A stretch of 64,000 nt of DNA from the NCBI GenBank assembly GCA_030147505.1, contig JASBVG010000068.1, forward strand, positions 44,117 through 108,116, read 5' to 3'. The notes beneath the pieces were generated by a model that worked only from the letters and a program-made list of their open reading frames with translations, did no database searches and was not told the origin of the DNA. The position numbers were made by a program, and so were the translations under genes. This DNA comes from Tardiphaga sp. (GTDB lineage Bacteria; Pseudomonadota; Alphaproteobacteria; Rhizobiales; Xanthobacteraceae). This document shows positions 24,471-64,000 of the stretch, piece by piece (position 1 is the first letter of the stretch; every line of letters begins with the position of its first letter).

Positions 24471-24661
24471 ATAGGGGCAAGGGAGGGGCTGCGGTAGAGT
24501 TTTCCCCGCATGAGACCGTCCCGCGCGTTACGCATTCGGCTACCGTGCGCATCCGACAGCCTTGACTTGGCGCCCCGATCGGCTAGGCAACAGGCGCGCG
24601 GGACGACCCGCGCCTGCGAAGACCATTCCGGGACGGCCCGGCCCATTCAGAGGGGCCGGCG

Positions 24662-25411
24662 ATGGCCGATCCGATCCAGCAATTCGACATCAAGCCTCTC
24701 ATCCGCCTCGGCAATATCGCCGGGCACGAGATCGTCTTCACGAACTCATCCGCTTTCATGCTGCTGGTGGCGGCCCTGGCCGCCGGCTTCGTCCTGTTCG
24801 GTAGCCGGAACCGGGCGCTGGTTCCCGGCCGCTGGCAATCGCTGGTCGAACTGCAGCACGAATTCGTCCTGAAGACACTGCGTGACATCACCGGAGACCA
24901 CGGACTGCGGTTTTTCCCCCTGGTGTTCTCGCTATTCGTCTTCATCCTGTTCGCCAATCTCATCGGCATGCTGCCTTATTCGTTCACGGTCACCAGCCAT
25001 CTGATCGTGACCTTCGCGATGGCCGCTCTGGTCTTCGCCGTCGTCACGATCTACGGGCTCGCGAAGCATGGTCTGTGTTTCTTCCGCCTGTTCATGCCGT
25101 CGGACGTGCCGCTGGCGCTTGCGCCGTTCATCGTGCCGATTGAGATCATTTCCTATCTGTCGCGCCCGGTCAGTCATTCGGTGCGCCTGTTCGCTGTCAT
25201 GCTCGGCGGCCACATCACACTGAAGGTCTTTGCGGGCTTCGTCGTCAGCCTGTCCGGCATCGGCGCCATCGGCGTCGCTGCAGCGATCCTGCCTCTGCTG
25301 ATGACGGTAGCGATCACGGCGCTGGAAATCCTGATGGCCTTCATTCAGGCCTATGTCTTCACGATGCTGACCTGCATGTACTTGAATGACGCGCTGCATC
25401 CGGGCCATTGA
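24662..25411 (+). CDS. F0F1 ATP synthase subunit a-like protein, isolated copy
   Basis: AtpB fold with [27 protein letters not shown] (essential Arg retained); no atpE/atpF neighbours. Confidence 0.88.
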
Positions 25412-25433: not shown

Positions 25434-25481
25434 CCGAAGGGGACGACCTTTTCGGGTTTTCCAAAGTCCAGGACGGCCTGG
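25434..25481 (+). ncRNA. Guanidine-II (mini-ykkC)-like riboswitch: two ACGR-loop hairpins
   Basis: CCGAAGGGG-ACGA-CCTTTTCGG (25434-25455) and CCAGG-ACGG-CCTGG (25468-25481), located just before sugE. Confidence 0.85.
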
Positions 25482-25501: not shown

Positions 25502-25822
25502 ATGGCTTGGGTTTATCTGTTCATCGCAGGAGTGCTCGAAATCGGCTGGGCCTATTCGATGAAGAAGTCGGATGGCTTCACCATCCTCGTGCCGAGCGTC
25601 ATCACCATTGTGGCGATGATTGCCAGCTTCGCATTGCTCTCCATCGCCATGAAGACCCTGCCGTTGGGAACGGCCTATACGATCTGGACCGGTATCGGCG
25701 CCGTCGGCGCGTTCGTGGTTGGCATCACCGTACTCGGTGAATCCGCCAATGCGATGCGTCTCCTGGCAGGTACGCTGATCGTCGCCGGCATCGTGATGAT
25801 GAAGCTGTCCACGGCCGACTAG
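25502..25822 (+). CDS. sugE: SMR-family guanidinium/quaternary ammonium exporter (SugE/Gdx)
   Basis: [26 protein letters not shown]...[20 protein letters not shown], 106 aa, four TM. Confidence 0.93.
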
Positions 25823-53518: not shown

Positions 53519-54205
53519 ATGCTGCTCATGAAATTCGTTGGCTGTTTGCTGGTCGCGATGTGGAGCTTGCTGGGAGCAGCCTGCGCCGAAGACCCTAACG
53601 CTGCCATGGCGCGGCTTCTGAAAGGCAAATCCGTTACGTTGATTATGCCGGTTTTCAGTCAGTTGGTGCGAACCAGCTATCCCGACGGCTTTGTACCTGG
53701 TTTCGAGAAAGCCCAGCCGCCACATTATGTGCTCGAACTCGTGCCCTCGGGTGAGAACGTTAATAACTGGACGCAGATGTTCACAGTGAGCGGTGTCAAG
53801 GGTCTTGCTTCTCAGCCGCAGGTCACACCCAAGCTATTCCTTGATCGCGTGGCTGACGGTTTCAAACGAGCATGTCCTTCGTCCTTCAGCTCACAGGTTG
53901 TCAGCGAAGACAAGATCAGTGGCTTCGATGCGTTCGCGGCTGTGATATCCTGCGGGGTGTCGCCCAGCACTGGCGGAAAGACGAGCGAAACCGCGCTGAT
54001 CGTCGCCATCAAGGGGCAGGCGGACCTCTATACGATCCAATGGGCCCAGCGAGCGTCCCCATCACCAGCACCAATTCTGATCGATCCGAAGAAATGGACT
54101 GCCCTCTATAAGAAAATGGGACCGATCACGCTCTGTCCTATCATTACCGGCGAAAAGGCGCCTTATCCGAGTTGCACCGGATCTGGCACAAAAGCTGCGG
54201 GATGA
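53519..54205 (+). CDS. Hypothetical secreted protein
   Basis: Signal peptide ending AACAED; no recognised domain. Confidence 0.6.
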   Translation: MLLMKFVGCLLVAMWSLLGAACAEDPNAAMARLLKGKSVTLIMPVFSQLVRTSYPDGFVPGFEKAQPPHYVLELVPSGENVNNWTQMFTVSGVKGLASQPQVTPKLFLDRVADGFKRACPSSFSSQVVSEDKISGFDAFAAVISCGVSPSTGGKTSETALIVAIKGQADLYTIQWAQRASPSPAPILIDPKKWTALYKKMGPITLCPIITGEKAPYPSCTGSGTKAAG

Positions 54206-54354
54206 CGGGTGCATGGCAGCCTCTGCGATTTTGGTTGTCGCTCTTTGTCTCTGGCCGACATAGCCTCCCGAAAGCATGAACCTGCCGGCAAGCCTTGACT
54301 TCCCGTTTTTGCCCGCTATGTTCCGCGCAAGTTTCGAACTCAAACGACCAAGTC

Positions 54355-54420
54355 ATGCGCAATAAAGTTACAAGCCTCCTTATTATCGTGGTACCCTGGC
54401 GCATCGCCGGGGGTAGCTGA
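54355..54420 (+). CDS. Candidate branched-chain amino acid leader peptide MRNKVTSLLIIVVPWRIAGGS
   Basis: 21-codon ORF with Leu-Leu-Ile-Ile-Val-Val run, followed by nested hairpins and a T-rich terminator. Confidence 0.85.
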   Translation: MRNKVTSLLIIVVPWRIAGGS

Positions 54421-54479
54421 CGGCTACCCACGATCCGAGCGGTGCGCACAGGGGTCCTCAACGGGGCCCTTTTTTATTT
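54399..54479 (+). promoter_or_regulatory. Candidate ilv transcription attenuator
   Basis: Outer stem GCGCATCGC/GCGGTGCGC (54399-54407/54439-54447) enclosing GGGTAGC-TGACG-GCTACCC; then AGGG(G)TCC-TCAACG-GGGCCCT followed by TTTTTATTT. Confidence 0.8.
54470..54477. other. Candidate attL core TTTTTTAT of the integrated element
   Basis: Host-to-element change between attenuator T-tract and integrase region; the 8-mer resembles the T-rich target recalled for Tn4371-family elements (recall, unverified). Confidence 0.5.
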
Positions 54480-54652
54480 CAGGATGACTCCAGTACCGCA
54501 CTTTGCTGGACTACGCCACAGCCATATACAGCAAGTTTATCAATGACTTAGGCGAGTTCAACATATGCCGGTGCTTTCTGAAACTTGACCCGGCTTCCCT
54601 TCTACTGGCTCCTACGAGGCTCCTGGGAATCGGGTCTTTCCGAGGAGTCATC

Positions 54653-55855
54653 ATGGCTAAGATCAAGCTCACCAAGTCCGCAGTAGATGCGGCACAACCC
54701 CAAGCGCAAGCCATCGAGCTGCGCGATACCCTTGTTCCCGGCTTCCTGTGCAAGATTACGCCGGCCGGTCGCAAGGTGTTCATGCTCCAGTACCGAACCA
54801 ACGCCGGCGAGCGACGCAAGCCGGCCCTGGGCCTGTTCGGCGAGCTGACCGTTGAACAGGCCCGCTCGCTGGCGCAGGAATGGCTGGCCCAGGTGCGCCG
54901 GGGCGGCGATCCGGCAGCGGACAAGGCCGAGGCACGCCAGGCACCCACCGTTGAGGAATTGTGCAAGAAGTTCATGGAGGACTACTCCAAGAAGCGCAAC
55001 AAGCCCAGCACCCGAGTCGGCTATCAAGGCGTCATCGACCGCTGCATCATCCCGCTGCTGGGCCGCAAGAAGGTTCACGACGTGAAGCGGCCGGACGTTG
55101 CCGGGCTGATGGAGAAACTTTCATACAAGCAGACCGAGGCGAACAAGGCGTTCAGCATCCTGCGCAAGATGTTCAACATGGCGGAGGTGTGGGGCTATCG
55201 GCCAGACGGCACCAATCCTTGCCGCCATGTCCCGATGTTCCCTGCCGGCAAGTCCACCCATCTCATCAGCGACGACGACATGGGCAAGCTGTTCCGGCAG
55301 CTCGACAAGATCGAGGTCGAAGGGCTTGAGAACTACGTCATCCCTCTGGCGATTCGCCTGCAATTCGAGTTCGCCGCCCGCCGCTCCGAAATCGTCACGC
55401 TCGAATGGGAATGGGTCGATCTGGAGAATCGGCGCGTCGTCTGGCCCGACAGCAAGACCGGCGGCATGTCCAAGCCCATGAGCGAGGAAGCCTACCGGCT
55501 GCTTTCGACGGCACCGAGACAGGAAGGCAATCCCTATGTGCTGCCGTCGCCACGCCATCCGGCGCAGCACCTGACCACAGGCGAATATTACGGCGGCTGG
55601 TGCCGCGTGCTCAAGGCGGCGGGTGCGACGCACGTGGGGACGCATGGCATCCGCCATCGCTCTGCGACCGACATTGCCAATTCAGGTATCCCGGTCAAGG
55701 TCGGCATGGCGCTGACGGCGCACAAGACCGTCGTGATGTTCATGCGCTATGTCCACACCGAGGACGATCCAGTGCGCGAGGCGGCCGAACTGGTGGCGAA
55801 CCGGCGCAAGGCGATTACCGGCGCCAAGCAGCCTCCTGCGGAGGCGACAGCATGA
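54653..55855 (+). CDS. int: Tyrosine-type site-specific integrase
   Basis: DUF4102-like N-terminus; catalytic residues in FAARRSEIVTLEW, THGIRHRSATDI, MRYVHTEDDP; RBS GAGGAG. Confidence 0.95.
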   Translation: MAKIKLTKSAVDAAQPQAQAIELRDTLVPGFLCKITPAGRKVFMLQYRTNAGERRKPALGLFGELTVEQARSLAQEWLAQVRRGGDPAADKAEARQAPTVEELCKKFMEDYSKKRNKPSTRVGYQGVIDRCIIPLLGRKKVHDVKRPDVAGLMEKLSYKQTEANKAFSILRKMFNMAEVWGYRPDGTNPCRHVPMFPAGKSTHLISDDDMGKLFRQLDKIEVEGLENYVIPLAIRLQFEFAARRSEIVTLEWEWVDLENRRVVWPDSKTGGMSKPMSEEAYRLLSTAPRQEGNPYVLPSPRHPAQHLTTGEYYGGWCRVLKAAGATHVGTHGIRHRSATDIANSGIPVKVGMALTAHKTVVMFMRYVHTEDDPVREAAELVANRRKAITGAKQPPAEATA

Positions 55856-56197: not shown

Positions 56198-57742
56198 ATG
56201 CCCACACCCAGGGTCACCATGAGCAAACTACGACACACACTGCAACTGCTGCACCGCGGGGCCTTGAGCACCCGTCAAATCGGTGCCGCCCTCGGCATCT
56301 CCAAATCCACTGTCAGCGAGATAGCCAGCTACGCGCGCGTGGCCGGCGTGGACTGGGCACTGGCCCAGAGCCTGAACGACGACGAACTCCAGGCCCGGCT
56401 CTACAAGCCACCCGTGGCGCGCGAGTCCCGGCACCTTGAACCCGACCACGCCCACATCCACCGCGAACTGCGCCGACCTGGCGTGACGCTGCAGTTGCTT
56501 TGGGAGGAATACCAGCAACAGCACAGCGGGCAGGCGTACAAGTACAGCGCCTTCTGCGAGAAGTACAAGGCCTGGGCCCGGCGCCTGCAGCGCTCCATGC
56601 GCCAGACCCACACGGGCGGTGACAAGCTCTTTGTGGACTACGCCGGCCAGACCGTTCCCGTGGTGGATGCCGACACTGGCGAGATACGCCAGGCCCAGGT
56701 CTTCGTGGCCGTGCTGGGCGCATCGAACTACACCTACGCCTGCGCCACCGCCAGCCAGAAGGCCACCGACTGGGTGGCCAGCATCATTAGCGCGCTGGAG
56801 TTCATCGGCGGCGTGCCCCGCCTGCTGGTGCCTGACCAGCCGCGCGCCCTCATGGCCCGACCCGACCGTTACGAGCCCACCGCGCACCGCCTGCTCGAAG
56901 AGCTCTGTGCGCACTACAGCCTGGCCGTGATGCCCGCGCGCCCGGCCAAGCCACGCGACAAACCCAAGGTGGAGGTCGCTGTGCAGGTGGTCGAGCGCTG
57001 GATTCTGGCCAGGCTGCGCCACCAGACCTTCTTCAGCCTGGCCGAGCTCAACCGGGCGATTGCCGCCTTGCTGGTGGACTTGAACCAGCGCGCGTTCAAG
57101 AAGCTGCCGGGCAACCGCACTAGCGCCTTCGCCGAACTCGACCGGCCAGCCCTGCGCCCCCTGCCGCCGGTGCGCATGCCCATCGCGCGCTTCAAACCCG
57201 CCCGCGTCAACATCGATTACCACGTTGAGCTCGATGGCCACTACTACTCGGTGCCCCACGCCCTGGTGGGTGAGCCGGTGGAGTTGCGCATCACGGCCGG
57301 CACGCTCGAAGTCCTGCACGGCAGCAAACGCGTGGCCGCCCACGCCCTCAATCCCCGACGGGGTGCACACACCACCACGCCCGAGCACATGCCGGCCTCG
57401 CACCGGGCGCACCTGCAGTGGACGCCGGCCAAGCTCATCGCCTGGGGTGAGCGCGTGGGCGCGGCCACCGCCGCCGTGGTGCGCTGGCAGATGGAGCACC
57501 GCCAGCATCCCGAGCAGGGTTACCGCTCCTGTCTGGGCCTCATGCGCCTGGGCCGTGAGTACGGGGCTGACCGGCTGGAGGCCGCCTGTGCGCGGGCGCA
57601 GTCGATTCGCTCACCGTCCTACAAGAGCATCGCCTCCATCCTGGGCTGCGGCCTGGACCAGCGGCCGCTGGATGCGCCGATGGCCGCACAGGCGAACCTG
57701 CCGCTGCACGAGAACGTGCGCGGGCCGGGCTACTACCACTGA
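56198..57742 (+). CDS. istA: IS21 transposase IstA
   Basis: HTH N-terminus, DDE core LFVDYAGQTVPVVDADTGE, VAVLGASNYTYACAT. Confidence 0.94.
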   Translation: MPTPRVTMSKLRHTLQLLHRGALSTRQIGAALGISKSTVSEIASYARVAGVDWALAQSLNDDELQARLYKPPVARESRHLEPDHAHIHRELRRPGVTLQLLWEEYQQQHSGQAYKYSAFCEKYKAWARRLQRSMRQTHTGGDKLFVDYAGQTVPVVDADTGEIRQAQVFVAVLGASNYTYACATASQKATDWVASIISALEFIGGVPRLLVPDQPRALMARPDRYEPTAHRLLEELCAHYSLAVMPARPAKPRDKPKVEVAVQVVERWILARLRHQTFFSLAELNRAIAALLVDLNQRAFKKLPGNRTSAFAELDRPALRPLPPVRMPIARFKPARVNIDYHVELDGHYYSVPHALVGEPVELRITAGTLEVLHGSKRVAAHALNPRRGAHTTTPEHMPASHRAHLQWTPAKLIAWGERVGAATAAVVRWQMEHRQHPEQGYRSCLGLMRLGREYGADRLEAACARAQSIRSPSYKSIASILGCGLDQRPLDAPMAAQANLPLHENVRGPGYYH

Positions 57743-57778
57743 ACTCCAACGTGCAAGCAAACCTAACAAGGAAGAACC

Positions 57779-58516
57779 ATGCTCAACGAACAGACCTTGA
57801 ACCAACTGCGCGCCCTGCGCCTGGACGGCATGGTGGCCGCCCTCAGCGACGCGGCCACCCACATCACGGCCAGCGAGCTGCCCTTTGAACAACGCCTGGC
57901 GCTGCTGGTGCAGCGCGAGGTGGACTGGCGTGACAGCAAGCGCCTGGAGCGCCTGTTGAAGGCGGCCCGCCTGAAGGTCTCCAGTGCCTGCCTGGAGGAC
58001 ATCGACTGGCGCGCCAGCCGGGGCCTGAGCCGAGAGGTCATCACCAGCCTGGCCGGCGGGGACTGGCTGCGCCATGGCCACAACGTGCTGCTCACCGGCG
58101 CCACCGGGTGCGGCAAGACGTGGCTCGCCTGCGCACTGGGGCAGCAGGCCGCGCGCCTGGGCTTCTCGGTGCTCTACACCCGCGCGCCACGGCTGCTGCA
58201 GGAGCTGCACGTGGCCCACGGCGATGGCAGCCTGGGCAAACGGCTGGCGCAACTGGCGCGGCTGGACCTGCTCATCCTGGACGACTTCGGCATCGCGCCG
58301 ATTGCCGCGCACGAGCGAAACGACCTGCTGGAATTGCTGGACGACCGGGTGGGCACGCGCTCGACGCTCATCACCAGCCAGTTGCCGGTGACGGCCTGGC
58401 ACGCCTGGCTGGACGAGCCCACGCTGGCCGACGCCATCCTGGACCGCATCGTGCACGGCTCGCACAAGATAGCCCTCAAGGGCGAGTCGATGCGCAAGCT
58501 CACCAAGGCCGTCTGA
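57779..58516 (+). CDS. istB: IS21 helper ATPase IstB
   Basis: [27 protein letters not shown] Walker [12 protein letters not shown]. Confidence 0.95.
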
Positions 58517-58675: not shown

Positions 58676-59917
58676 TCTTGGACGGGCGCCGGGGCGCTTA
58701 TGGCAAGGAAGTCTTGCCTACCCTGGCGGCGCAGTTGGTGAAGGAGTACGGCAGCAGCTTTGCGGAGCAAAACCTGCGCCGCATGGTGCAGTTCGCCACC
58801 ACCTTCCCCGACGAGCAGATTCTCGTATCACTGATACGAGAATTGAGCTGGACGCACTTCATTGCCCTGATCCCGCTGAAAGACCCGCTCCAGCGGGACT
58901 ACTACGCGCAGATGGCGAGCGCCGAGCGCTGGAGCGTGCGCACGCTGCGCGAGCGCATCGACTCGATGCTGTACGAGCGCACGGTACTGTCCCAAAAGCC
59001 GGGCGAGACGATCGCGCAGGAGCTGGCGACGATGCGCGATGCGCAGCGCATGTCGCCCGCCCTGGTCATGCGTGACCCGTACATCCTCGACTTCCTGGGA
59101 CTGCGGGACACATGACAGGAAGGCGACTTGGAGGCGGCGATCATCCGCGAAATGGAATCCTTCCTGTTGGAGCTGGGCGCAGGTTTCAGCTTCGTGGCTC
59201 GGCAGAAGCGCATCCAAATTGACGGCGAAGATTTCCACCTTGACTTGCTGTTCTACAACCGCAAACTGCGGCGGCTGGTGGCAGTGGAGTTGAAGGTCGG
59301 CGAGTTCAAGGCGGCTTTCAAGGGACAGATGGAGCTTTACCTTCGCTGGCTGGACAAGCACGAACGGGAGCCGGAGGAAGCCTCGCCGCTGGGAATCATC
59401 CTTTGCACCGGCAAAAAGCGCGAGCAGATCGAATTGCTGGAGCTGGACAAGTCGGGCATCCACGTCGCCGAGTACCTGACCGCCTTGCCGCCGAGGGGCG
59501 TGCTGGTGGAGCGGCTACAACAGGCAACGCAGCGGGCGCAGTTGCAGATCGAGCAGCGCAAGACCGACAACGAGTAGCCCTGCCCCAAGCAGTCGGGCGT
59601 CCCGGCGTGCCGCCGTCGGGTTCGCGGGCTGCGCCCCGCGCTTCGTGCCGAATCGCGGCCATCCGGCTTTGACCCCTGACGCCTCCGGCCCTGCCGGGCC
59701 TGCGTGCTTCGCTTGCCCAAAAGACGACAGTGTGCAGTGGGCGGGGTGTGGGCGGTCTTGCTGTTCCCTTCACCGTATCACGGCGTTCTCGCCGTCAAGG
59801 GCGGCGCGTGCCATGCACGCTTGCGTCCTGGCGGCCGTCTGCGACCCCTGACTGCTTGCGCTGCGCCGTGCTGGCCACGGTTCCGGGCAATTCCGCCCGA
59901 GCAACCGGAGCACGATC

Positions 59918-60427
59918 ATGTCGCAACTGTCCTTTTCCTCGTTCGATGCCTCGCTGATGGTGCGCGATGCACAGGGCCGCTACCTGCTGGCGACGGCCGA
60001 CCAAATTCTGGAGGCCGCGCGCCAGGCCATCGAGTACAAGATGCAGCGCGGTGCGTCGTTCAGTTCGCCGGTGGCGGTCAAGGAGTACCTGAGCGCCAAG
60101 TTGGCTGGTTTCGAGCATGAAGTCTTCGCTGTGCTGTTCTTGGATACGCAGCATCGCCTGATCGAATACAGCGAGCTTTTCCGAGGCACCATCGACAGTG
60201 CATCGGTGTATCCACGCGAGCTGGTCAAGGAGGCGCTGCGGCTCAATGCGGCAGCGGTCATCGTTTCGCACAACCATCCGAGCGGCAACCCCGAACCGAG
60301 CGGCGCCGACAAGGTACTGACCCAGCGGCTCAGGGAGGCGCTGGCGCTGGTGGATGTCCGCACGCTGGATCACATCATCGTGGCGGGTGGCAGCACCATA
60401 TCCTTCGCCGAACGCGGTCTGATTTGA
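59918..60427 (+). CDS. RadC-like JAB domain protein
   Basis: EVFAVLFLDTQHRLIEYSELFRGTIDSASVYPRELVKEALRLNAAAVIVSHNHPSGNPEPSGAD. Confidence 0.94.
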   Translation: MSQLSFSSFDASLMVRDAQGRYLLATADQILEAARQAIEYKMQRGASFSSPVAVKEYLSAKLAGFEHEVFAVLFLDTQHRLIEYSELFRGTIDSASVYPRELVKEALRLNAAAVIVSHNHPSGNPEPSGADKVLTQRLREALALVDVRTLDHIIVAGGSTISFAERGLI

Positions 60428-60468: not shown

Positions 60469-61206
60469 TCAGATCGCTGCTTGATTGACGCGCCGGCTCA
60501 GGGCTTCGGCGCTTTCCTTGCGTTCGCTGTAGCGATCTACCAGATATGGCGCCACGTCGCGCGTGAGCAGCGTGAACTTCATCAGCTCTTCCATCACATC
60601 CACGATGCGGTCGTAATAGGCCGAGGGCTTCATGCGTCCCGCTTCATCGAACTCCTGGTATGCCTTGGCGACCGAAGACTGGTTTGGGACGGTCAGCATC
60701 CGCATCCAGCGGCCCAACACGCGCATTTGGTTAACGGCGTTGAAGGACTGCGATCCACCCGACACCTGCATCACCGCCAACGTCTTGCCCTGTGTCGGGC
60801 GCACCGCGCCGACCGACAGAGGAATCCAGTCTATTTGGGTCTTCATCAAGCCGGTCATGGCACCGTGGCGCTCGGGCGAACTCCACACCATGCTTTCGGC
60901 CCATTGCACCAGTTCGTGCAGTTCCCTGACCTTTGGGTGATCGTGAGGCGCGTCATCCACCAACGGCAGGCCCGAGGGGTTGAACATCCGTGTCTCGCCG
61001 CCGAGCGCGCTCAGGATGTGTGCCGCTTCTTCAGCAGCCAGGCGGCTGAACGAGCGTTCGCGCAGCGAGCCATAGAGCAGCAGGAAGCGCGGCGCGTGGG
61101 TGGCACGCTCGGGTGCCATTAACCGCTGGGCATCGGGTTGCTGGAACAGCGCGGTGTCGATATTGGGTAGGTCGATTCTGGATTCAGACACGGCGGCCTT
61201 CCGCAT
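60469..61206 (-). CDS. arsH: Arsenical resistance protein ArsH
   Basis: [73 protein letters not shown]. Confidence 0.94.
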
Positions 61207-61606
61207 TCACGACGGCTTCGCCGTCTTCCTTGCTGAATGCACCGCGCTGCGGCTGGGGCAGGATGCCCAGCACCGCTTCCGAAGGTCTGCACAGCAGTGC
61301 GCCCAGCGGCGAGACCACGATGGGGCGGTTGATGAGGATGGGGTGCTGGAGCATGAAGTCGATTAAATGTTCGTCGCTCCATTTGGAATCATCCAGGCCC
61401 AATTCCGCATAAGGTGTGCCTTTCTCGCGCAGCACCGCACGCACTGGCACACCCATCGCAGCGATCAGCGTTTTCAGCGTCTCGCGGTCGGGCGGTGTTT
61501 TCAAGTATTCGATGATGGTCGGCTCTTCGCCGCTGTTGCGAATCAAGCCCAGCACGTTGCGCGACGTACCGCAGTCGGGGTTGTGATAGATGGTGATCTG
61601 GCTCAT
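61184..61606 (-). CDS. arsC: Arsenate reductase, glutaredoxin-coupled type
   Basis: [67 protein letters not shown]. Confidence 0.95.
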
Positions 61607-61620
61607 GCCATTGCCTCGGT

Positions 61621-61983
61621 TCAGGGATTCGTGGGGTTGGCGGAATACATGCTGGCGCCCTTGAGCCGCCACCGGCGGCCCAACCGCAAGGCGACATGCA
61701 CCAGCAGGATGAGCACCGGCACTTCCACCAGCGGCCCGATCACCGTGGTGAAGGCGACAGGCGAAGCCAGGCCGAACGACGCAATAGCCACGGCGATGGC
61801 CAGCTCGAAGTTGTTGCCTGCGGCAGTGAAGGCGATGGCGGTGGTGCGTGGGTAGTCGGCCTGGATCAGCCGGCCCATAAAGAAACTGATGAGGAACTGG
61901 ATCACGAAGTAGAGTGTCAGCGGCACGGCAATCTTTAGCGCGTCCATCGGCAGGCGCACCACGTCGGCACCTTTGCCCCGCTC
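61621..61983 (-). pseudogene. C-terminal fragment of ACR3-type arsenite efflux permease
   Basis: [58 protein letters not shown]...[13 protein letters not shown]-terminal two-thirds missing. Confidence 0.85.
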
Positions 61984-62224
61984 GCGGCCCACGCACGCCG
62001 CAGTGCTGGAACTGCACACCTTGCAGGCACTCGACGCGACCCTGGCGGGCGCGTCCTTGCGCGAGGTTGCCGAGGGGCTGTTCGGCGTTGATGCCGTCGC
62101 GGCCGATTGGCACAAAGACAGCGCCTTGCGTGCCCGCGTGCGGCGCTTGGTGCGCCGGGGCGATGCGCTGATGCGCGGCGGCTACCGCCGCCTGGCACAG
62201 CTTCCGCCGTTCCCGTCGCATTAG
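61973..62224 (+). pseudogene. DUF2285-family protein, apparently 5'-truncated
   Basis: [61 protein letters not shown]; upstream domain replaced by acr3 sequence. Confidence 0.7.
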
Positions 62225-62338
62225 GAGGGGGGACGTTTCGCGCCCCCTGCAAATCGTCCCTTAGCAAGAAGCCTTGCTTTCTTGAAAGTGCCTCTATCCG
62301 GCCGCGTGGTGTGGCCGGGCTTGATGGAGGTACACCCC

Positions 62339-62623
62339 ATGCGACCCTCTCCCTTGCGGCCTGCCGCCGCTACTGTCGCTGCGCCCTCGCAGCCCCAACG
62401 CTACCTGACCAACGACGAAGCCGCCGAGTATCTGCGCCTCAGTCCTCGCACGCTGGAGAAGCAGCGCGTGATCGGCGGTGGCCCGAAGTTCCGCAAGTTC
62501 GGTCGCCGCGTCATGTACGCAGTAAGCGACCTCGATGCCTGGGCCGACCAGCGCAGCTACGAGGCTACATCCGACCCGGAATACGCCGAACGCCACGCGG
62601 GTGACTACCGTGATGGCCGCTGA
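62339..62623 (+). CDS. AlpA/MerR-like helix-turn-helix protein
   Basis: YLTNDEAAEYLRLSPRTLEKQRVIGGGPKFRKFGRRVMYAVSDLDAWAD. Confidence 0.88.
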   Translation: MRPSPLRPAAATVAAPSQPQRYLTNDEAAEYLRLSPRTLEKQRVIGGGPKFRKFGRRVMYAVSDLDAWADQRSYEATSDPEYAERHAGDYRDGR

Positions 62624-62637
62624 TCGTCGGCGCGTGG

Positions 62638-63495
62638 GTGGCCTTCGCCATGTCCGGCCCTCCAGGGCAAGCCTTGCCGCAGTGCGAACAGCTCGACCTG
62701 TTCCGCGCGCTGCCGGGCGACATGGCGCCACGCGACAGCCAGGACTTGATGGCCTTTCCATTCTTCTCGCTGGCGAAGTCGCGGCGCATCGCGCCGATCG
62801 ACTTCCGCAGCGGGAACATCACCATCCGCGTGGAAGGCACGGCCGAGCACGGCATCGCCACGATATGGGATGCCGACGTTTTGATTTGGGCGGCCTCGCA
62901 GATCGTGGAGGCACGCGACGCGGGCATTCGCCCGTCGCGCTGGATACACGCCACGCCCTACGAGATCCTGCGCTTCATCGGGCGCGGCACATCCCTCAAC
63001 GACTACCTGCGCCTGAAAGCGGCGCTCGACCGGCTGCAATCGACCAGTGTGGCCACGTCCATCCGAGAAACCACGGGCAGGCGCTTGCATCGCTTTTCGT
63101 GGATCAACGAATGGCGCGAACTGGCCGATGCCAGCGGCACGCCGCTGGGCATCGAGCTGATCCTGCCGGACTGGTTCTATGCCGGCGTGCTCGACGCCGC
63201 CCTGGTGCTGACCATCGACCCGGCTTATTTCCGCTTGAAGGGCGGCATCGAACGCTGGCTGTACCGCTTGGTACGCAAGCACGGCGGGCGGCAGGAACAC
63301 GGCTGGCAATTCGACTTCCGGCATCTGCATCGCAAATCCGGCAGCGCGGCTCGCTTCTCGGACTTCGCCTACGACCTGCGCGTGCTGGTGGCACGGCAGT
63401 CGTTACCCGGCTACGTCCTCGGCATCGAGCGCATGCCGGACGACAACACCGAACTGCTGACCTTCCGGCCCGTGCTGCATACGGCACGGGGATAA
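62638..63495 (+). CDS. Replication initiator protein A-like
   Basis: FPFFSLAKSRRIAPIDFRSGNITIRVEGTAEHGIATIWDADVLIWAASQI; RPA-type plasmid/ICE initiator. Confidence 0.88.
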   Translation: MAFAMSGPPGQALPQCEQLDLFRALPGDMAPRDSQDLMAFPFFSLAKSRRIAPIDFRSGNITIRVEGTAEHGIATIWDADVLIWAASQIVEARDAGIRPSRWIHATPYEILRFIGRGTSLNDYLRLKAALDRLQSTSVATSIRETTGRRLHRFSWINEWRELADASGTPLGIELILPDWFYAGVLDAALVLTIDPAYFRLKGGIERWLYRLVRKHGGRQEHGWQFDFRHLHRKSGSAARFSDFAYDLRVLVARQSLPGYVLGIERMPDDNTELLTFRPVLHTARG

Positions 63496-63760: not shown

Positions 63761-64000
63761 ATGATCTTCGCGCTTCTCAATCAGAAAGGCGGCGTCGGCA
63801 AGACCACGCTCGCCACGCACATCGCGGGCGAACTGGCGATGCGCGGTCTGCACGTCATCCTGCTGGATGCCGACCCGCAGGGTTCCTCACTGGACTGGAC
63901 GCAGCGCAGAAGCCAGCAAGGCTTGCCACGGCTGTTCAGCGCCGTGGGCCTCGCACGCGAAACGCTGCACCAAGAGGCACCAGAACTCGCCAGGCGAGCA
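63761..64000 (+). CDS. parA: ParA-family ATPase, 3' end outside window
   Basis: [46 protein letters not shown]. Confidence 0.94.

Follow-up and report, generated by a model that had tools for sequence, protein, structure and literature searches.

Why does the integrase gene of a mobile element in Tardiphaga sp. lie directly downstream of what looks like the leader of a branched-chain amino acid operon? The insertion might be tied to amino-acid control, or the site might follow from the way such elements choose their targets. The window, a 64,000 nucleotide stretch, contains the leader and one end of the element. We consider it very probable that a Tn4371-family ICE with arsenic and mercury cargo sits in the T-tract of the ilvI attenuator, through site-specific recombination by its tyrosine recombinase, and that the family as a whole mostly lands in intrinsic terminators.

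An ilv attenuator and its two junctions

Window positions 54355-54478, read on the plus strand, encode a conserved Leu/Ile/Val leader peptide along with the stem of an antiterminator and an intrinsic terminator. The leader peptide MRNKVTSLLIIVVPWRIAGGS (54355-54420), which ends at a stop codon and contains Leu-Leu-Ile-Ile-Val-Val control codons, is conserved among genus and family relatives. Its native promoter, TTGACT-16-TATGTT (54295-54322, plus strand; 9 of 12 matches in a consensus scan), now stands 5' of the ICE, and relatives have similar hexamers, TTGACA/T...TATGTT or TATGGT, ahead of their leaders. A 228-residue ORF (53519-54205), with a signal-peptide-like start and no Pfam match, lies between the leader and miaA.

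The antiterminator (54394-54453), recognized by folding and by comparison of 14 leaders, is a long nested stem in which CCCTGGCGCATCGCC... pairs with ...GCGGTGCGCACAGGG, with a second hairpin inside. The terminator (54450-54475), found by terminator scan, fold, and alignment, reads AGGGGTCCT-CAAC-GGGGCCCTT and then a T-run; its stem of nine pairs (54450-54471) leads into TTTTTTATTTCAG. The predicted fold of the 128-nt leader has an energy of -55.5 kcal/mol (z = -4.2), and none of 200 shuffles was as stable. Across the 14 leaders, 93% of cells in the 25-pair nested stem are paired, against 31-54% when the partners are slid, and two pairs show GC-AU exchanges. The leader ORF, the nested hairpins, and the G/C hairpin running into a T-run, all picked out in an earlier note made from the sequence alone, are thus confirmed by translation, fold, and terminator scan.

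Antiterminator and terminator share the segment CAGGG, which belongs to the 3' arm of the former (CACAGGG) and to the 5' arm of the latter (AGGGGTCC). Mutually exclusive folding, which the earlier note had suggested checking, appears in the predictions at both extremes: a ribosome sitting on the stop codon leaves only the terminator able to form, and in a wholly free leader the long stem is favored. In a partly freed segment, however, antiterminator and terminator fold together. The attenuator logic that these models predict is termination when tRNA is charged and read-through under starvation. Leader peptide, antiterminator, and terminator are all kept 5' of ilvI in relatives, where the branched-chain amino acid gene directly follows the leader, whereas here it lies past the ICE.

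The attL core TTTTTTATT (54470-54478, plus strand), located by comparing the joined flanks with the empty site, is at once the T-tract of the attenuator terminator and the left end of the element. The far end is absent from the window; contig C41 stops at window position 64000, and the other end lies on contig C94 of the same assembly. There an identical 9-bp TTTTTTATT forms the attR core (G000:C94:29481-29489, equal to L010:14482-14490) directly 5' of ilvI, the order toward the junction being trbI, DUF2274, a non-coding stretch of about 280 bp, TTTTTTATT, and the ribosome site and start of ilvI. This gene (ilvI/ilvB, C94:29591-31270) is the sole acetolactate synthase above the TIGR00118 cut-off. 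When the host flanks are joined at the core and aligned with the uninterrupted site in G012, the nearest relative, 331 of 357 bases agree (93%) and the core is ungapped. Without the gap between C41 and C94, the element measures at least 39.0 kb.

The earlier note had placed an element at the T-tract of a branched-chain amino acid attenuator, with its integrase gene downstream on the same strand and the leader cut off from its structural genes. The insertion is exactly there, as the two cores and the joined flanks show; int starts at 54653, 183 bp past the start of the T-run, and the leader remains at attL while ilvI lies beyond attR. The uninterrupted order leader-terminator-ilvI in genus and family relatives, with the end of miaA just upstream in several, agrees with what that note had said of related Rhizobiales. 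An ilv gene missing past attR or from relatives, or an unconserved leader ORF, would have spoken against its account, and none of these was found.

The source assembly is a draft of 134 contigs with 7.6% estimated contamination, and the ICE ends fall on separate contigs, which leaves some room for an assembly artefact in which the strain never had leader and ilvI side by side, or in which a contaminant genome supplied the ICE ends. However, the host flanks on both sides match one relative, and the point at which they fit together exactly is a 9-bp repeat, the known core of the family. The ilv leader is single-copy in the assembly, and the left and right ends of the ICE, each found once in the genome, fit the conserved ends of the Tn4371 family. 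We regard an artefact as extremely improbable.

At attR, ilvI retains its ribosome site but is now without its promoter and attenuator, and ilv control has presumably been lost. No promoter with at least 9 of 12 consensus matches was found 5' of ilvI at attR; weaker candidates there are possible, such as TTGTCG-18-TACTAT in the right end of the ICE.

Gene content and family of the element

A scan with the integrase yielded 80 loci, mainly from beta- and gammaproteobacteria, along with a few alphaproteobacteria and MAGs. The conserved left end of Tn4371-type ICEs (54470-54652, plus strand), seen in a conservation profile, carries the motif TTTTYRTTTCANNATGACTCCAG about 181 bp before int in 77 of these 80. 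The int gene itself (54653-55855, plus strand) encodes a tyrosine recombinase with arm-binding, SAM-like, and catalytic domains (Pfam PF13356, PF14659, and PF00589). Beyond it, Pfam matches show an IS21-type insertion (istA, istB; 56198-58516, plus strand) within the YhcG/PDDEXK nuclease gene of the ICE, a YhcG_C remnant of the split gene remaining at 59128-59577. A radC-like backbone gene follows (59918-60427, plus strand; PF04002), and then arsenic cargo on the minus strand (60469-62221), comprising an arsH-like FMN reductase (60469-61206; PF03358) and, read from ORF translations alone, an arsC-like reductase and a transporter remnant. An HTH_17 gene and repA (62282-63495, plus strand; PF12728 and PF10134) make up the ICE maintenance module; the former may be xis-like, judging only by its position. 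Read from the sequence alone, parA runs from 63762 to the contig end. The part on C94 encodes an S26 peptidase, a DUF3363 relaxase, cargo that includes a mercuric-reductase-like protein, a LysR regulator, traG, trb genes, and DUF2274.

The features that mark the Tn4371 family are present: direct repeats of 8-9 bp and TTTTTYAT type at both ends, int with the end motif and radC/repA/parA on the left, and relaxase, LysR (traR), traG, and the trb operon on the right. The published att core of the family is TTTTTCAT/TTTTTTAT (PMC2789088). By gene content and the TTTTTTAT core the element is a Tn4371-family ICE, whose excision and transfer are predicted. No further copy of the integrase above 65% identity was found among 397 other genomes of the same order.

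Several smaller features were seen near the ends. A conserved inverted repeat, GACCCGGCTTCCC ... GGGAATCGGGTC (window 54587-54640), immediately precedes the ribosome site in the 5' region of int and may be an RNA hairpin or a site for a protein. In many ICE right ends (L129-L157), an inverted repeat resembling CAAGCCTTGCGTG..CACGAAAGACTTG comes first, then TTGACACCRG, and then the core; in the present ICE (L010:14425-14490) the repeat is altered, with pairing kept. A conserved right-end TTGAC[A/G/T] would come to stand 17 bp from a left-end CANNAT in the closed circle, resembling an int promoter particular to the circle. We do not claim such a promoter, because TGACACCAGAAC and TGACTCCAGCAC are, in addition, direct repeats on either side of the core, as integrase or excisionase arms would be. 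Elsewhere in the window, two guanidine-II (mini-ykkC) riboswitches occur 0.8 kb apart (24595-24641 and 25435-25481), the second, as expected, 5' of a small multidrug-resistance type protein (25502-25822), and the first, unusually, just 5' of an apparent ATP synthase subunit a (24662-25411).

Intrinsic terminators as landing sites

Published descriptions give Tn4371-family targets as TTTTTCAT, GATTTTAAG, or tRNA 3' ends; in the open-licence papers on Tn4371 or on ICEs with terminators, we found no statement of terminator targeting. We surveyed 78 distinct left ends, 77 from other genomes and the present one, for hairpins adjoining the T-run. A loose hairpin test was uninformative against shuffles, and a strict stem test was used instead. 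By this test, 51 of the 78 sites (65%) have a stem, compared with 3.1% of dinucleotide shuffles. In 1.15 Mb of host DNA used as a control, the same stem adjoins 51 of 172 TTTTTYRT sites (30%; p = 1.8e-7 against the ICE sites) and 63 of 335 T6 sites (19%; p = 4e-15), and the range across matched host T-tract sites is 19-36%. Intergenic controls come closer, with a stem at 39% of TTTTTYRT and 32% of T6 sites, so that ICE sites have one about twice as often (p roughly 1e-3 to 1e-6). When the motif is narrowed furthest, to intergenic TTTTTTRT, the figure is 53% against 65%, not a significant difference (p = 0.15), or 42% without Shewanella (p = 0.035). The hairpin is not required, because 14 of the 78 sites (18%) fail even the loose test.

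Genomic context points the same way. Of 75 sites, 33 lie no more than 80 bp past a co-directional ORF; two sites follow tRNAs, and one coincides with the terminator of rsmX, a regulatory sRNA, at the end of which a Tn4371-family ICE lies in Stutzerimonas stutzeri BAL361 (L098:794-901). At 11 loci of the survey, the majority of them atypical in what lies upstream, Rfam showed rsmX and tRNAs alone and no attenuator or riboswitch. The site in Shewanella sp. ANA-3 (L101), whose TTTTTTAT repeat was already published, is a terminator site, and right ends from 25 host genomes have the T-tract at the other junction as well. On sequence grounds, then, the insertion, both junctions, the empty site, and the family-wide association with terminators are established. 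The terminator link is firm: Tn4371-family ICEs land mostly in intrinsic terminators. The earlier note missed this usual landing site, and since the family behaves in this way, the ilv site needs no special tie to amino-acid control.

Integrases of the family probably recognize TTTTTYRT together with a G/C-rich flank, a combination that in these genomes is mostly the 3' arm and U-tract of an intrinsic terminator. The weak hairpin excess over intergenic TTTTTTRT means that Int may read just this T-tract and flank, as plain DNA, terminators being hit since many such intergenic sites are terminators and since insertions into genes are selected against. The sites without a hairpin favor such reading, as does a flank profile that shows no more than G/C richness, 77% having G at position -9; the twofold excess over intergenic T6 or TTTTTYRT sites argues against it. 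On balance we lean toward recognition of the T-tract alone, which concerns site choice and is compatible with landing in terminators as the main explanation.

The terminator captured beside int

Because the core is asymmetric, the hairpin of a terminator that has been hit stays on the int side and reads toward int. At attL the host promoter, leader peptide, antiterminator, and intact terminator are all kept, with int now next. Such a retained host terminator would normally shield int from host transcription. In the present strain the shield would be a regulated ilv attenuator, predicted to open only at low charging of Leu/Ile/Val-tRNA, and starvation read-through into int is plausible.

The earlier note had gone further, suggesting that read-through into int could couple excision to the amino-acid status of the host. 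In the full form of this model, branched-chain amino acid starvation would stall the ribosome in the leader, the terminator would fail, more int would be made, and the ICE would excise, returning ilvI to its own promoter. The attenuator is whole at attL, from promoter and leader to antiterminator and T-tract, no strong promoter or terminator is predicted from attL to int, and excision would give back the empty site. However, the site follows from target choice, and an adaptive link is unneeded. Moreover, TraR overexpression in a related ICE raised the xis transcript about 80-fold and int merely 1.9-fold, and xis overexpression alone increased excision (PMC11448139). As xis, not int, responded most to TraR there, read-through into int alone may not suffice for excision, and we judge the full starvation model unlikely. 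Still less likely, in our estimate, is the broader proposal that Tn4371-type ICEs actively recognize hairpin plus T-tract and use the captured terminator as an int insulator, with starvation here leading to excision and a healed ilv operon.

Landing in terminators would matter beyond this strain. ICEs without a fixed tRNA target need sites found in all hosts, and terminators are universal, intergenic, and mostly safe; their use would help account for the broad host range seen in Tn4371-type ICEs, carriers of catabolic and resistance cargo. The rule predicts landing places and, for terminators that are attenuators, a special class of insertions with harmful or regulatory effects. The strain makes two questions testable: how ilvI is now transcribed, and whether a regulated terminator beside int affects excision.

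Among known systems, the elements Tn4371 and those of R. pickettii 12J and Shewanella ANA-3 share with the present one the integrase, the order of radC/repA/parA, LysR, traG, and trb, and a TTTTTYAT core, and the int-end motif TTTCANNATGACTCCAG here fits the published int primer. Published work names the att core or the 3' end of a tRNA-Leu as their target and does not mention terminators, whereas the present element occupies an amino-acid attenuator in a bacterium related to the Rhizobiales. That attenuator resembles ribosome-mediated ilv/leu attenuators in its control-codon leader peptide, in an antiterminator overlapping the terminator, and in the biosynthetic gene found 3' of it in relatives; it differs in having an ICE int directly 3', with the real target at the far end of the element. 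Bacterial group IIC introns likewise prefer DNA adjoining intrinsic terminator motifs, but they are retro-elements, whereas this is a tyrosine-recombinase ICE that recombines within the T-tract. In Tn916, a terminator at one end insulates the ICE from host transcription (PMC11658703). This terminator, T1, is alike in standing near one end and shielding element genes, but it is Tn916's own, whereas here the shield would be the terminator of the host.
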